From positions 1-32,310 of the forward strand of contig JAJAZB010000314.1 of the NCBI GenBank assembly GCA_026785975.1: 32,310 nt of DNA, written 5' to 3'. The position numbers were made by a program, and so were the translations under genes. The notes below the pieces were generated by a model, which searched no databases, was not told the origin of the DNA, and saw only the letters and a program-made list of their open reading frames with translations. Numbering within the stretch: the first letter of the stretch is position 1; every line of letters begins with the position of its first letter. The stretch is from Cytophagaceae bacterium. GTDB lineage: Bacteria; Bacteroidota; Bacteroidia; Cytophagales; Spirosomataceae. Shown piece after piece: positions 1,007-21,475 of this stretch.

Positions 1007-1225
1007 AGAATAGTGGATAGAGGAAAGAGGTTAGATTTTTATTTTACTCTATCCTCTATCTGTATTGGGTCACGAGGTTGTACCCGAAACTTTGCCAAAG
1101 TTTTAGAACCGGGGCGCGTAGCCTTTGGCAAAGTTGGCGCAATCTAACCAGTGTATAACCTCGTGAACCAATACATCTATCCTCTATTCTCTAACCTCTG
1201 TCCTCTCCCCTCTATTCTCTATTTT
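1007..1225. repeat. Inverted heptad-repeat arms in an intergenic spacer
   Basis: The left arm (1007-1034) is four 7-nt units: AGAATAG TGGATAG, then AGGAAAG AGGTTAG. The right arm (1177-1225) is seven units: CTATCCT CTATTCT, CTAACCT CTGTCCT, CTCCCCT CTATTCT, CTATTTT. The arms are largely complementary, so the spacer can fold into one long hairpin. The right arm runs into the membrane-protein gene and supplies its last codons (ENRE and the TAG stop at 1212-1214). The left arm begins 10 nt outside the DUF4129 start codon. Confidence 0.75.
1062..1174. repeat. Nested inverted repeat with AACTTTGCCAAAGTT palindrome
   Basis: Inside the heptad arms lies a second inverted repeat: 1062-1083 pairs with 1153-1174 (20 of 22 positions complementary). 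Within that, a third pair (1088-1100 and 1123-1135, AACTTTGCCAAAG, perfect over 13 nt) carries the near-palindrome AACTTTGCCAAAGTT. The same palindrome with matching flanks recurs at 3989-4036, so it looks like a dispersed repeat inserted into this spacer. Confidence 0.7.
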
Positions 1226-2117
1226 CTTCTTCGTCATGGGTTGTCGTTAAACGTTGGGGAGCCTGGCCAATCTGCCCGATGTCATTTAAAAGCCCTACCC
1301 CTTCTTTTTTCTCGACCAAATTGTAGTACTGAAAAGCAACAGCGAGCACGACCAGCGATTGTAACAACACGGTACCCACGGTTGAAATCATGGTTGTGAT
1401 AATAAAGCCAATCGTCAAATCGCCGGGTAAGACCTGGAACATTTTCAACATCGAGAGAATACCCGCTGGCAACTGAAAAACGTAGCCGACGATGGCCGCA
1501 ATGAAATACGTGACAATCAGTATCCCAAACGTGGACCACCATTTTCCCGAGATCAAATTGAAGGGCCGACTGAGCGCGGTGCCCAAAGACGCATTTTCCT
1601 GAACAAGCACCATGAAACTTAAGGAAAGCACGACGCTGATGTAGATACCTGGGAAAAACAAGAGAAACAACCCGATCACAGTCAGGCATAAAGACACGAG
1701 GGCCAGACCAAAGCCAGACAGGAGATGCTGACGAACCCGCTGCCAAACCTGGGCTACCGCCGGGGGGCGATTACCGGCCACCTCGTATTCAACCAGAAAG
1801 GCGCAAACCGTCAGCGTCATCATAATTCCCGACAGCGCCGTTAAGCCCAGCAATACCCAATAATCGGGCGAGAAGAATTGACTGTAAATTTGGGACATTG
1901 GGTTTGTACGCTGGCCCGAACTGGGATTGGGCCCCAGCAAGGAAAACAGTTTGGATTGGTACAAACCACCAACCACGCCCGCGACCAGGGCAATCGGAAC
2001 GACCAGATAAACCAGGCACGTAATCAGGGGTTTGGCGTTCTGAACGGCAAACTGAAACGTCGCGTTAATTTTTTGGCCGAAATCTCGTTCCCGGCGTAGT
2101 TCAATGGGGGGATTCAT
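1212..2117 (-). CDS. Multi-pass membrane protein of the SpoIIM/DUF4129 operon
   Basis: A 301-residue integral membrane protein with about six hydrophobic segments, among them LITCLVYLVVPIALVAGVVG, YWVLLGLTALSGIMMTLTV, LVSLCLTVIGLFLLFFPGIY, WWSTFGILIVTYFIAAIVGY and TVLLQSLVVLAVAFQYY, and a short charged cytosolic tail. The motif GIYISVVLSLSFMVLVQE followed by a LSRPFNLISGKWW-like segment resembles the family sometimes labelled glycerophosphoryl-diester phosphodiesterase membrane domain; no catalytic residues are evident and the function is unknown. The ATG at 2117 gives MNPPIELRRERDFG; the longer reading frame upstream lies inside the SpoIIM gene and is a shadow. It overlaps the SpoIIM gene by 17 nt, implying translational coupling. 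Its final codons are made of the heptad repeat. Confidence 0.7.
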   Translation of the reverse strand: MNPPIELRRERDFGQKINATFQFAVQNAKPLITCLVYLVVPIALVAGVVGGLYQSKLFSLLGPNPSSGQRTNPMSQIYSQFFSPDYWVLLGLTALSGIMMTLTVCAFLVEYEVAGNRPPAVAQVWQRVRQHLLSGFGLALVSLCLTVIGLFLLFFPGIYISVVLSLSFMVLVQENASLGTALSRPFNLISGKWWSTFGILIVTYFIAAIVGYVFQLPAGILSMLKMFQVLPGDLTIGFIITTMISTVGTVLLQSLVVLAVAFQYYNLVEKKEGVGLLNDIGQIGQAPQRLTTTHDEEENRE

Positions 2118-5608: not shown

Positions 5609-7318
5609 ATGACCGAAAAACGCTGGCTCTACAAACCCCTCCCCCAATCGCCCGACGACCTGGCCTGCGTGGATAGCCTCTGCCTTTCACTCAACATTGA
5701 GGCCAGTCTGGCAACGATGCTCTGGCAGCGCGGAGTGACTTGTTTTGATGAAGCCCACTCGTTTTTTCGCCCCAGTCTCGACGGTCTGCACGACCCGTTT
5801 TTGATGCGCGACATGGACCGCGCCGTGGCCCGGCTCGAAGAGGCGTTTGGCAGTGGGGAGCGGATTTTGGTGTACGGCGATTACGACGTGGACGGCACGA
5901 CGTCGGTGGCGTTGTTTTACGGGTTTCTGAAAACCCTTTACGACGAGGTCGAATTTTACATTCCCGACCGCTACAAAGAAGGCTACGGCGTGCAACCGGC
6001 GGGCATCGAGTACGCCCGTGCCAATCGGTTTTCGCTCATCATCACGCTCGACTGCGGGATCAAATCGGTCGAGTTAATCGCTCTGGCGCAGGAGTACGGC
6101 ATTGACTTCATTATTTGCGACCACCACCGCCCCGGCTCCGACCTACCTCCCGCTGTGGCCGTGCTCGACCCCAAACGCGCCGACTGCGAATATCCCTACA
6201 AAGAACTGACGGGCTGCGGCGTAGGCTTCAAACTGCTCCAGGCGTTTTGCCAGAACAACAACATTCCGGCGACGCGGGCTTTTGAATACCTCGATCTGGT
6301 GGCCGTCAGTATTGCCGCCGACATCGTACCGATTACGGGCGAAAACCGGATTCTGGCGTTTTATGGCCTGAAACGGTTGAATGAAAGCCCCCGGCAGGGC
6401 TTGAAAGCCTTGATTAAAGTGGCGGGTTTCCAGAAAAATCTCGATATCTCGAATGTTGTCTTTGGCCTGGGACCCCGGATCAACGCGGCCGGGCGGGTCA
6501 AACACGCCAATGCTTCGGTGGAGTTGCTGCTCTGCGAGGATGAGGAAAAAGCCGATGGCTTTGCCCAGGTTATCAACGTCCACAACACCGACCGCCGCGA
6601 TTTCGACGTCCGCATCACCCAGGAAGCGCTGACGATGATCGAGTCGGACGGGTACATGAATTCGAAAAGTACGGTGTTGTACAAAAATGACTGGCACAAA
6701 GGCGTCATCGGAATTGTGGCCAGCCGCTGCATCGAAAAATACTACCGGCCCACCATCATCCTGACGGCCTCGCAGGATAAAGTCGCCGGTTCGGCGCGGT
6801 CGGTGGCCGGGTTCGACGTGTACGAGGCCATCGAAGAATGCGCCGATTTGCTGGAACAGTTCGGCGGACACATGTACGCCGCCGGGTTAACGCTGAAGGT
6901 CGAAAATGTTCCCGCGTTCCGGCAACGATTTGAAGAAGCCGTCACCCGCCGCCTTAAGCCCGACCAGCTTTTGCCGCTCATCGACGTGGATTTGCGCCTG
7001 CCGTTGGGGCAGATTTCCGAAAAGTTTTACCGGATTATGAATCAAATGGAGCCGTTTGGCCCACAAAATATGTCACCGGTATTCGTCGCCAAGCGGGTAA
7101 GGCTGCGCGGTTTGCCCCGGATTATGAAGGAAAAACACCTGCGCATCGACGTGGTTCAGGAGGGTTCACCGGTCTTTGCCGTGATTGGCTTCGGTATGGC
7201 GCATTTTTATGAATCATTATTGACCCATCCCACGTTTGATATTTGTTATCAACTCAGCATCAACGAATACAAAGGCCAGCGAACGCTGCAATTGATGCTG
7301 AGGGATATTAAATTTTAA
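5609..7318 (+). CDS. recJ: Single-stranded-DNA-specific exonuclease RecJ
   Basis: A 569-residue protein of normal length for RecJ, the 5'-3' ssDNA exonuclease of recombinational and mismatch repair. DHH-family motifs are complete: YGDYDVDGTTS (about residues 88-98), LDCGIKS, CDHHRPGSDLPPA (about 169) and GCGVGFKL. The DHHA1 region carries GPRINAAGR, GVIGIVASR and the GSARSVAGFDVYEAI to GGHMYAAGL blocks. A C-terminal OB-like domain is seen around RLRGLPRIMKEKHLRIDV. The ATG at 5609 is preceded by TTACTTTGCGAAC, a TAnnTTTG-like element so close to the start that the mRNA could have almost no leader. lptB follows in the same direction, separated only by a heptad hairpin. Confidence 0.95.
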   Translation: MTEKRWLYKPLPQSPDDLACVDSLCLSLNIEASLATMLWQRGVTCFDEAHSFFRPSLDGLHDPFLMRDMDRAVARLEEAFGSGERILVYGDYDVDGTTSVALFYGFLKTLYDEVEFYIPDRYKEGYGVQPAGIEYARANRFSLIITLDCGIKSVELIALAQEYGIDFIICDHHRPGSDLPPAVAVLDPKRADCEYPYKELTGCGVGFKLLQAFCQNNNIPATRAFEYLDLVAVSIAADIVPITGENRILAFYGLKRLNESPRQGLKALIKVAGFQKNLDISNVVFGLGPRINAAGRVKHANASVELLLCEDEEKADGFAQVINVHNTDRRDFDVRITQEALTMIESDGYMNSKSTVLYKNDWHKGVIGIVASRCIEKYYRPTIILTASQDKVAGSARSVAGFDVYEAIEECADLLEQFGGHMYAAGLTLKVENVPAFRQRFEEAVTRRLKPDQLLPLIDVDLRLPLGQISEKFYRIMNQMEPFGPQNMSPVFVAKRVRLRGLPRIMKEKHLRIDVVQEGSPVFAVIGFGMAHFYESLLTHPTFDICYQLSINEYKGQRTLQLMLRDIKF

Positions 7319-7391
7319 GGAGTGCGGGGTCAGGAGCGAGGAGTGAATTTAGCAACCTCCTCACTCTTCGCTCCTGACTCCTCACTCCTGA
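7318..7391. repeat. Inverted heptad-repeat hairpin between recJ and lptB
   Basis: The left arm starts with the last base of the recJ TAA stop: AGGAGTG CGGGGTC, then AGGAGCG AGGAGTG (7318-7345). The right arm (7357-7391) is CTCCTCA CTCTTCG, CTCCTGA CTCCTCA, CTCCTGA. Arms 7318-7347 and 7360-7389 are complementary at 26 of 30 positions. The lptB ATG follows at 7396. Essentially the whole intergenic spacer is this structure. Confidence 0.85.
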
Positions 7392-13198: not shown

Positions 13199-13335
13199 TT
13201 TTTTGTCTGAACCAGGATTGGCCGGGATTTAAGGATTTACGGGATGGTCGATTCTTCAGGATAATTGACTCCTAAATTCTGAATTTATATCCTGTAAATC
13301 CTTAAATCCCGGCCAATCCTGGTTCAGACAAAAAA
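13199..13335. terminator. Long near-perfect hairpin between convergent GH16 gene and ileS
   Basis: Arms 13199-13245 and 13289-13335 are complementary at 46 of 47 positions, with a 43-nt loop. Each arm starts or ends in a run of T/A, so it can terminate transcription from both sides. The words GGATT recur every 8-10 nt in the arm (AGGATTGGCCGGGATTTAAG). The stem is far longer than a normal terminator and has the same build as the other repeat-based spacers in the window. Confidence 0.75.
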
Positions 13336-18848: not shown

Positions 18849-19007
18849 ATGAAAAGGACTTTTCAACCTTCCAACCGCAAGCGTCGCAACAAACATGGCT
18901 TTCGCGAGCGCATGAGCACCGCCAATGGTCGCCGGGTTATTACTGCCCGCCGCGCCAAAGGCCGCTGGAAACTCACCGTTGCCGACGAGAAACGCCACAA
19001 GCAGTAG
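18849..19007 (+). CDS. rpmH: 50S ribosomal protein L34
   Basis: A 52-residue, strongly basic protein that begins [20 protein letters not shown] and continues with [20 protein letters not shown], the universal L34 sequence. L34 is a component of the large ribosomal subunit. It lies upstream of rnpA as in most bacteria. Its TAG stop codon lies inside the left arm of the heptad hairpin at 19003-19087, so the 3' end of the gene is part of the structure. The C-terminal tail [10 protein letters not shown] is of ordinary length. Confidence 0.97.
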
Positions 19008-19087
19008 TAAAAAGATAAAAGTGAAGAGTGAAAAGTTAATTGTGGAAATTCTAACTTTTCACTCTTCACTTTTATCTTTTTACTACT
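19003..19087. repeat. Perfect 36-bp inverted heptad repeat between rpmH and rnpA
   Basis: Arms 19003-19038 and 19052-19087 are perfectly complementary over 36 bp, with a 13-nt loop. The left arm reads in 7-nt units AGTAGTA AAAAGAT, AAAAGTG AAGAGTG, AAAAGTT. It includes the rpmH stop codon and ends 9 nt before the rnpA ATG. The right arm is followed by TTTT, so it could also act as a strong attenuating terminator before rnpA. Confidence 0.85.
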
Positions 19088-19534: not shown

Positions 19535-19666
19535 TAGGACTATCGCTCACGGGGCCTGGAGCCTCCCCCCCGGCCCCTCTCCGGTGGAGAGGGGTGACTC
19601 AGAAACCTGGATTACCTCCCCTCTCCACCGGAGAGGGGCCGGGGGTGAGGCTAAGCGAAAGTCCTA
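19535..19666. repeat. Paired palindromic element (empty counterpart of the DUF559 cassette ends)
   Basis: Two inverted copies of the palindrome that bounds the DUF559 cassette lie at 19561-19596 (CCCCTCTCCGGTGGAGAGGGG core) and 19614-19651 (CCCCTCTCCACCGGAGAGGGG core). Their CCTC/GAGG arms face outward and a 17-nt spacer separates them. An outer inverted repeat encloses the pair: TAGGACTATCGCT (19535-19547) against AGCGAAAGTCCTA (19654-19666), 12 of 13 complementary. The orientation equals that in ileS, but no gene lies between. It could also terminate the rnpA transcript. Confidence 0.8.
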
Positions 19667-19720: not shown

Positions 19721-21379
19721 ATGAAACGCCGTTCCCTCAAACTCCTCCTGCTGACCGGCCTGACCGGAATCGGCCTCACGTTCGCTTCGTTCACCGATCC
19801 TGGTGATCGCTTTTTTGAGATTGCCAAAAACCTGGACATTTTCGCTACCCTGTTTAAGGAACTCAATACGTACTACGTCGACGAGATCAACCCCAACAAA
19901 ACGATGCGCGCCAGCATTGAGGCCATGCTCAAATCGCTCGATCCGTACACCAACTACTTCCCGGAAGACGACATTGAGGATTACATGACCATGACCACTG
20001 GCAAGTACAACGGCATCGGGGCGCTCATTGGCACCCGGCAGGGGCAGCACCTGGTCATGATGGTGTACGAGGAAACGCCCGCCGAAAAAGCGGGTCTGAA
20101 AATTGGCGACGAAATTCTGAAAATCGACGGGGTGGATTTGAAAAGTCGGCCCGGCCTCGACATTGGCAAACTGCTGAAGGGCCAAACGGGTACGTCGGTA
20201 AAACTGACCGTAAAACGCTACGGTCAGCAATCCAGTGAAGAACTATCGGTGGGCCGCGACGTGGTCAAAATGACCAACGTGCCCTACTACGGCATGGTTT
20301 CGGACGAAGTGGGCTACATCGACTTGAAGGATTTTACCAACACGGCTTCGCGGGAAGTACGGGCGGCATTCCAGGATTTGAAGGGCAAGGGCATGAAGAA
20401 ACTCATCCTCGACCTGCGCGACAACCCCGGCGGATTGCTCAACATGGCGGTGGATATTTCCAACGTGTTTATTCCAAAAGATGCCGAAGTCGTGAGTACC
20501 AAAGGCAAAGTGACGGAGTGGAACAAAACCTACACGGCACTCAATCCGGCGATGGACGCCGAAATGCCCTTGGTCGTCCTGACCAACAGCCGCAGCGCCT
20601 CAGCCGCTGAAATCGTGGCCGGTGTGATCCAGGATTACGACCGGGGCGTATTGGTCGGACAGCGCAGTTTTGGCAAAGGATTGGTACAGGTTACCCGCGA
20701 TTTATCGTACAATTCCAAGTTGAAAGTGACCACGGCCAAGTACTACATCCCGTCGGGGCGTTGCATTCAGGCCATTGATTACAGCCACCGCAACCCGGAT
20801 GGTTCCGTGGGCAAAATTGCGGATTCGTTGAAGGCCGCCTTCAAGACCAAAAACGGGCGGGCGGTGTACGACGGGGGCGGCATTGCGCCCGACGTGGACG
20901 TTGAAAAGATGGTCCCCGCAGCGGTCACGGCCAGCCTGATGCAAAAAGGGCTGCTTTTCGACTACGCCAACAAGTACCACCACGACCATCCGACCGTTAA
21001 GCCTGCCCGCGAGTTCTTTTTATCCGACACCGACTATCAGGGTTTCACCAAGTGGCTGGCCGACAAGGAGTACGATTACACGACGCAGGTCGAGCGGGAG
21101 TTTGACGAATTAGAGGCCTCGGCTAAAAAGGAAAAATACTACGACGGCGTCCAGGAGCAATTGAAGTCGCTCCGTACAAAGTTATCGCACAGCAAAGAAA
21201 CCGATTTGCAAAAGTTCAAGGACGAAATCAAGTACCAATTGGAGCAGGAGATTGTGGTGCATTATTATTTGCAAAAAGGCGTTCGTGAGCTTTCTTTCGC
21301 CAAAGACCCGGAAATCCAAACTGCCGTTAAACTCTTCGCCGATATGCCCCGGTATCAAGCGATCTTGAAAGGAAAGTAG
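19721..21379 (+). CDS. C-terminal processing peptidase, S41 family
   Basis: A 552-residue exported serine protease. The signal or anchor (LKLLLLTGLTGIGLTFASF) is followed by a helical segment, a PDZ domain (about residues 80-165, with GIGALIGTRQGQHLVMMV and EETPAEKAGLKIGDEILKI) and the S41 catalytic domain. The latter carries LKGKGMKKLILDLRDNPGG, the serine motif NSRSASAAEIVAGV (about residues 289-302) and the lysine motif QRSFGKGLVQ (about 320), the Ser-Lys pair of CtpA/Prc enzymes. These proteases trim or degrade periplasmic proteins at their C-termini. I prefer the ATG at 19721 (MKRRSL) over an in-frame TTG at 19706. tsaB follows after a 97-nt spacer that is one long perfect hairpin. Confidence 0.92.
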   Translation: MKRRSLKLLLLTGLTGIGLTFASFTDPGDRFFEIAKNLDIFATLFKELNTYYVDEINPNKTMRASIEAMLKSLDPYTNYFPEDDIEDYMTMTTGKYNGIGALIGTRQGQHLVMMVYEETPAEKAGLKIGDEILKIDGVDLKSRPGLDIGKLLKGQTGTSVKLTVKRYGQQSSEELSVGRDVVKMTNVPYYGMVSDEVGYIDLKDFTNTASREVRAAFQDLKGKGMKKLILDLRDNPGGLLNMAVDISNVFIPKDAEVVSTKGKVTEWNKTYTALNPAMDAEMPLVVLTNSRSASAAEIVAGVIQDYDRGVLVGQRSFGKGLVQVTRDLSYNSKLKVTTAKYYIPSGRCIQAIDYSHRNPDGSVGKIADSLKAAFKTKNGRAVYDGGGIAPDVDVEKMVPAAVTASLMQKGLLFDYANKYHHDHPTVKPAREFFLSDTDYQGFTKWLADKEYDYTTQVEREFDELEASAKKEKYYDGVQEQLKSLRTKLSHSKETDLQKFKDEIKYQLEQEIVVHYYLQKGVRELSFAKDPEIQTAVKLFADMPRYQAILKGK

Positions 21380-21475
21380 GGCAATTTAGGGCATAGAGCA
21401 TAGGGCAGAGGGCATAGTTGGCTTACGCAAATTTAACTATGCCCTCTGCCCTATGCTCTATGCCCTAAATTGCCC
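21379..21475. repeat. Perfect 41-bp inverted heptad repeat between ctp and tsaB
   Basis: Arms 21379-21419 and 21435-21475 are perfectly complementary over 41 bp, loop 15 nt. The left arm contains heptads TTAGGGC ATAGAGC, ATAGGGC AGAGGGC, ATAGTT. It starts with the last base of the protease TAG stop and ends one base before the tsaB ATG (21477). The spacer contains nothing else. Confidence 0.9.

Follow-up and report, generated by a model that had tools for sequence, protein, structure and literature searches.

A 115-bp MITE-like element with a 7-bp-periodic TA target, probably inserted into an older heptad hairpin of a Cytophagaceae bacterium

Bacterial MITEs, including RUP, Correia, ERIC, QMITE and others, have been reviewed (PMC10969869). 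In the IS481 family, most members produce 6-bp duplications (PMC10045372), and IS481 prefers the target NCTAGN (PMC3053399); a duplication range has also been given for IS1202 (PMC10045372). Insertion sequences are also known to insert into REPs (PMC1525189). Among tandem repeats, TAACTGA heptads have been found in Beggiatoaceae, Cyanobacteria and some Bacteroidetes, and 7 nt is the commonest unit in most genomes surveyed for repeats of 5-11 nt (PMC4679880). Here, a spacer is described in which a mobile element of the first kind stands inside a repeat of the last kind.

The window, that is, the whole stretch of 32,310 nt that was analysed, corresponds to contig C314 in a draft assembly of 4.93 Mb (523 contigs; completeness 88%), and this genome is the sole representative of its genus in the collection used for comparison. 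A SpoIIM-domain gene precedes a membrane-protein gene (1212-2117, minus strand, ATG at 2117, stop TAG at 1212-1214), and the next gene on the same strand encodes a DUF4129 protein (277-996). The spacer between the last two, 215 bp long, contains the nested repeats. All three pairs claimed by the original prediction were recovered by repeat search: an outer pair at 1007-1035/1190-1218 (29 nt, 86%), a middle pair at 1061-1083/1153-1175 (91%), which measures 23 nt rather than the 22 nt first given, and an inner pair at 1088-1100/1123-1135 (13 nt, 100%). A further inverted repeat, I3, lies at 1016-1029/1047-1060. In the outer hairpin, the G-first, purine-rich arm AGAATAGTGGATAGAGGAAAGAGGTTAGA (1007-1035) belongs to a heptad class listed genome-wide, and the pyrimidine heptads occupy 1048-1060 (TCTATCC TCTATC, left of the insertion, from the sequence and I3) and 1176-1223 (TCTATCC TCTATTC TCTAACC TCTGTCC TCTCCCC TCTATTC TCTATT, the pyrimidine-rich arm, from the sequence and repeats D1 and I1). 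The flanking array reaches about 1223, which corrects earlier coordinates.

The right arm enters the membrane-protein gene. Its codons N-R-E-stop (1212-1223) consist of heptad sequence and the protein ends in HDEEENRE, so that the arm does supply the last codons and the stop, as had been proposed. Orthologs of the membrane protein were found in 93 of 223 family genomes, and among 69 orthologous spacers most C-termini are a short acidic stretch followed by F or Y (DEG-x-F/Y-stop, REEEF-stop); where the DUF4129 gene comes next, its likely start (predicted) is tens of bases from the preceding stop or overlaps it. Where relatives normally finish with an aromatic residue and a stop, the window gene has N-R-E-stop from the right arm. 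Spacers of related genera either lack both layers or carry other heptads. A period-7 tract stands near the end of the orthologous gene in 6 of the 69 relatives, and no tract of period 5, 6, 8 or 9 was found at the orthologous region in any of them. Since the units in these six differ from TCTATCC, this gene end was probably colonised by heptads on several independent occasions. The locus documents gene-end erosion by heptad repeats, in which a stop codon is now heptad sequence.

Positions 1061-1175 form a MITE-like, multi-copy element of 115 bp with the TIRs TGTATTGGGTCACGAGGTTGTAC (1061-1083) and GTATAACCTCGTGAACCAATACA (1153-1175). Its 23-bp ends, TGTATTGGKTCACGAGGTT...CCAATACA, are 91% complementary and carry the termini TGT...ACA (TGTATTGG...CCAATACA). 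A search of the own genome with 1061-1175 gave 18 two-ended copies and five truncated at contig ends; full copies are 88-99% identical. In all, the element stands at 22-23 places, in both orientations. For the 17-nt end TGTATTGGKTCACGAGG, 41 occurrences were counted at up to two mismatches, essentially all of them marking the end of a copy. The flanking sequence differs from copy to copy. Among the 18 copies with both ends, nine show an exact 6-bp target duplication and another five show one with a single mismatch (14/18), and comparison of left with right flanks of these 18 gave no consistent fit for lengths of 4, 5, 7, 8 or 9. Copies, ends and duplications are thus direct observations in the assembly. 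In the window, the duplication is TCTATC (NNTANN) at 1055-1060 and 1176-1181. Deleting the 115 bp and one duplication (121 bp) rejoins TCTATCC TCTATCC TCTATTC in phase, and an empty allele, free of the 115 bp, would be expected to read ...CTATCCTCTATCCTCTATTC....

Four copies (L010, L013, L014 and L018) have no matching duplication. Their junctions show the central TA in all cases and the outer TA in most, which suggests recombination between copies or chimeric assembly; these copies lie near contig ends of the draft and may be chimeric. At C413:1-337 (L165/L018), an 88-bp perfect inverted repeat surrounds the element and includes apparently unique sequence; this contig start is probably an assembly fold-back. 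Outside the genome, the scanned GTDB species gave 37 matches of the 17-mer, which are chance-like and show no paired ends at the spacing of the element. The TIR sequence was not found in plasmids, and the 223 family genomes gave matches to the core of the element only, in one other genus.

The constant part of the element is a core palindrome, AACTTTGCCAAAG...CTTTGGCAAAGTT (1088-1135). All copies in which the whole core is preserved carry the AACTTTGCCAAAG pair, single changes allowed, and the innermost pair of the window therefore arrived with the element; a separate insertion of this pair at the locus is ruled out. Palindromes related to the core stand alone on C91, C404, C2, C211, C156 and C159, so the core may be a palindrome of greater age that became enclosed by the element ends. 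Another genus carries a 90%-identical core that has no element ends. Between the core halves lies a 14-nt GC box, CGGGGCGCGTAGCC (1110-1123), which is also found in TTTGAAG-type heptad tracts. Such boxes (CGGGGCGCGTAGCC, GGTCCGCCGCGCGG) recur in AT-rich heptad tracts and palindromes (L177, L178, L183, L184, L192), placed as if inserted between units.

Empty sites exist elsewhere in the genome. An intact 38-bp palindrome, GCTCCGTAGCGTAGGGTTTAAACCCTACGCTACGGAGC, lies at C105:3325-3362 and C212:5-42, and the element splits the same palindrome at its centre, TTTAAA, in L011, L012, L014 and L021-L023, with the TTTAAA duplication read on both sides in L012 and on one side in L011, L014 and L021-L023. 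Three states of the palindrome are seen (C105, C212, L121, L123, L126, L128): empty, bearing a 15-nt insert ACTGCGCGTCGGCGG, and split by the MITE. Longer repeats (TTATTCCCTTTCGGGTGA...) in turn enclose it. Taken together, the copies, ends, duplications and empty or split palindromes give the anatomy of a MITE. The element is shorter than about 400 bp and has no ORF of transposase size, as MITEs are, and it shows TIRs, a duplication of fixed length and dispersed copies at unrelated sites. A transposase-bearing pair of its TIRs was not found in the assembly; as the assembly is incomplete, this missing autonomous partner is weak evidence. Many accepted MITEs have no known autonomous partner.

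The outer heptad hairpin appears from sequence comparison to be a separate and older kind of feature. Two samples of the own genome gave 8 and 18 period-7 tracts, whereas no other lag in the range 4-12 gave more than 3, with lag-7 and hairpin thresholds chosen during the analysis, and period-7 tracts occur in relatives as well. The CTATCC-type heptad has 91 matches in the genome, and CTATCC-type hairpins (a minus/plus pair) stand free of the MITE at no fewer than 16 loci, hand-counted from the match list (e.g., C263:10872-11015). The element is likewise missing from heptad hairpins built of many other units, for example at 7318-7389, 19003-19087 and 21379-21475 of the window. Conversely, the element occurs outside heptads (e.g., L002, L006, L009 and L012). 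The two layers are therefore observed to be independent, and the expectation that inner element and outer hairpin are separable was borne out. Furthermore, the 6-bp duplications and the empty palindrome copies show insertion, which supports the proposal that the inner element inserted into the hairpin. The insertion point, placed in the loop by the original prediction, falls in loop-side pyrimidine heptads and not in a heptad-free loop.

Heptad hairpins have a strict polarity, with the G-rich arm first, which is unusual. G exceeds C in the 5' arm of all 19 heptad hairpins that show a difference (19:0), against 94:58 for other hairpins; the purine arm comes first in 16 of 16 element-free CTATCC-type hairpins, and the G-rich arm comes first in the three relatives' heptad hairpins (L215, L225, L232). 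Long near-perfect arrays of GAATGCT and ACTGATA units stand at contig ends (L203:9260-9339 on C162, L209:1-121 on C320) and likely break the assembly there. For 19535-19666, where the same relation had been suggested, the nested palindromes were confirmed, and the region holds neither the 115-bp element nor heptads; a relative of its outer palindrome (GACTTTCGCTTAGCCTCACCCCCGG) lacks the inner CCCCTCTCCACCGGAGAGGGG part in L154:65-141. Another dispersed palindrome (GTCTGAACCAGGATTGGCCGGGATTTAA...) lies on two contigs, at 13199-13335 of the window and in L169:1499-1601.

What connects the two layers is the target of the element. The 40 element/target junctions, among them those of copies with no matching duplication, were read away from the element: TA stands at bases 3-4 in 39 and at bases 10-11 in 34, against a background of 3.3% of dinucleotide positions. 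Read directly from the junctions, the target is thus TA-N5-TA-N5-TA, with the central TA flanked on each side by a cut 3 bp away. A 614-kb sample of the own genome contains 54 such sites outside the element, of which 31 (57%) lie in heptad tracts, and among TA triplets spaced by 4-12 bp the 7-bp spacing is the commonest (64, against 17-52); this sample of about 0.6 Mb, on which the heptad statistics rest, includes element-bearing contigs, and unbiased contigs gave a like picture. Nine of the 18 insertions fall in heptad tracts, compared with 0.5% of random positions, and no insertion was found in the TA-less heptads TTTGAAG and AGTGAAA. As most target sites lie in heptads, the nesting is explained by the target alone and recognition of hairpins is not needed. 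This periodic 7-bp rule is the unusual feature of the system and a new result.

The nested structure is best read as two stacked events, an older heptad hairpin and a later MITE insertion guided by the TA-N5-TA-N5-TA preference, to which a probability of roughly 0.88 is given. A degenerate hairpin of 7-bp repeats (TCTATCC class) would have arisen between the co-directional genes and, in doing so, would have taken the place of the upstream gene's final codon and stop. In a second step, the non-autonomous 115-bp MITE (TGT...ACA) would have entered the pyrimidine heptads, where a 6-bp staggered cut would have duplicated TCTATC. The transposase, most likely a DDE enzyme of IS481 type acting in trans, would favour TA-N5-TA-N5-TA and cut symmetrically about the middle TA; because each heptad unit offers one TA, the motif is repeated and the element accumulates in heptad arrays. 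The order of events at the window locus is one that we infer. Palindrome-in-heptad nesting in this lineage is hereby explained by a mobile element whose target shares the 7-bp period of the repeats. Tandem 7-mers are widespread and poorly understood intergenic repeats of bacteria, and the rule ties them to a transposon family, giving a testable connection and a predictor of insertion sites.

The enzyme that moves the element is probably an IS481-type transposase, to judge from the ends. The sequence TGTATTGGTTC agrees with IS481-type ends (TGT[AG]RTGG[TC]TC...) at all but one fixed position. In the same bacterial family, nine IS481-model loci (L327-L333, L342, L353) have TGT..TGG[TC]TC ends paired around a transposase gene, and the motif TGTnnTGGYTCnnnAGnT, whose design took the MITE partly into account, marks those gene ends and matches the MITE with no mismatch. 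The 6-bp duplication fits the majority length of the IS481 family. The readable duplications of the relatives' IS481-type elements are mostly 7 bp, not 6 bp, as in the sister-genus elements with the TIR TGTGATGGTTCATAACATTCGCTACA (L328, L330, L332, L333: TCATATT, TTTTAAG, CATCATG, TGTAATG). Searches of the own assembly gave no NF033577 match for an IS481 transposase at E<=1e-10 (88% complete) and no PF00665 (rve) match at E<=0.01 (523 contigs, several of which break inside the element). Since the transposase is missing from the assembly, the element is classed as resembling IS481 ends and not as an IS481 member. Ends of the form TG(T)...(A)CA, with 5-6 bp duplications in some members, are found as well in families such as IS1202/ISAba32, IS21 and Tn7/Mu-like elements. 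Mobilisation by an enzyme of such a family is a lesser prospect, with a minor but real share of the probability; the shared type of ends and duplications and the IS481 gene's absence from the assembly speak for it, while the first 16 nt of the element resemble IS481-type TIRs of the same bacterial family.

The nested hairpin might instead be kept as an RNA structure inside an operon, acting as an attenuator, mRNA stabiliser or processing site. The folding energy of minus-strand RNA from 997-1225 is -87.4 kcal/mol, whereas dinucleotide shuffles give -51.7 +/- 4.6 (z = -7.8), and since none of 200 shuffles matched this energy the structure is far beyond chance. The genes are co-directional and, in many relatives, close or overlapping, so that the insert uncouples the membrane-protein and DUF4129 genes. 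Against such a role, relatives have no orthologous hairpin, the heptads of their spacers differ and seem independently gained, and an Rfam search gave a sub-threshold match only and no curated RNA family. A retained RNA function is thus unlikely, and we infer that the nested structure has no further function.

Recognition of DNA hairpins or cruciforms by their loops, as for insertion sequences in REPs, is a somewhat less probable account still and a less likely targeting rule than TA spacing. Several sites do lie in hairpins, either heptad hairpins or the midpoint of the 38-bp palindrome, and there is the REP precedent (PMC1525189). However, L002, L006 and L009 have no detectable hairpin and match TA-N5-TA-N5-TA completely or almost so, the fraction of insertions in heptads (50%) is close to the 57% expected from the motif alone, and heptads that lack TA have received no insertion. 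More speculative is a mechanistic coupling in which heptad arrays would be both a safe harbour for IS481-type elements and partly the product of a transposase with a 7-bp period, as related TGT...ACA elements that make 7-bp duplications, like those of sister genera, would leave tandem 7-mers behind if they inserted and excised again and again; this is given little credence. That heptads, element and core form one composite repeat, spread or copied as a unit, can be dismissed despite the perfect nesting and single rod fold at the window locus, since each copy has different flanks, half of them lie outside heptads, the heptad class occurs at least 16 times with no element, and each layer is found independently.

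Under the two-event reading, the element defines a new family of MITEs that stands within repeats of a familiar type, and it is ordinary in kind. With the IS481 family (NF033577; IS481 of Bordetella pertussis) it shares TGT...ACA ends and a 6-bp duplication with a central TA; unlike that family, it has neither a transposase gene nor a partner in the assembly, and its target is extended to TA-N5-TA-N5-TA. The IS481-type elements of sister genera have the TIR start TGT..TGG-TC in common with it and differ in their readable duplications, mostly 7 bp against 6 bp. Like RUP, Correia, ERIC and QMITE, it is short and non-coding, has TIRs, TSDs and tens of copies and may fold as an RNA hairpin, whereas its periodic target is unusual and its TIR pair is absent from the other GTDB species scanned and from plasmids. 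IS1397 and ISPpu9 (PMC1525189, PMC8450116) are likewise mobile elements found repeatedly inside intergenic palindromic repeats, but the preference here is accounted for by spaced TA rather than by REP sequence conservation or a loop. REP/RAYT repeats (a 20-40 bp palindrome with a GTAG/GGAG tag, in inverted pairs, with a Y1 transposase) differ from this 115-bp element with TSDs. Finally, cyanobacterial STRRs and TAACTGA repeats are intergenic tandem 7-mers as well; in contrast to these, the heptads here comprise many unrelated 7-mers with unit variants, often form hairpins in which the G-rich arm is always 5', and serve as landing sites of a MITE.
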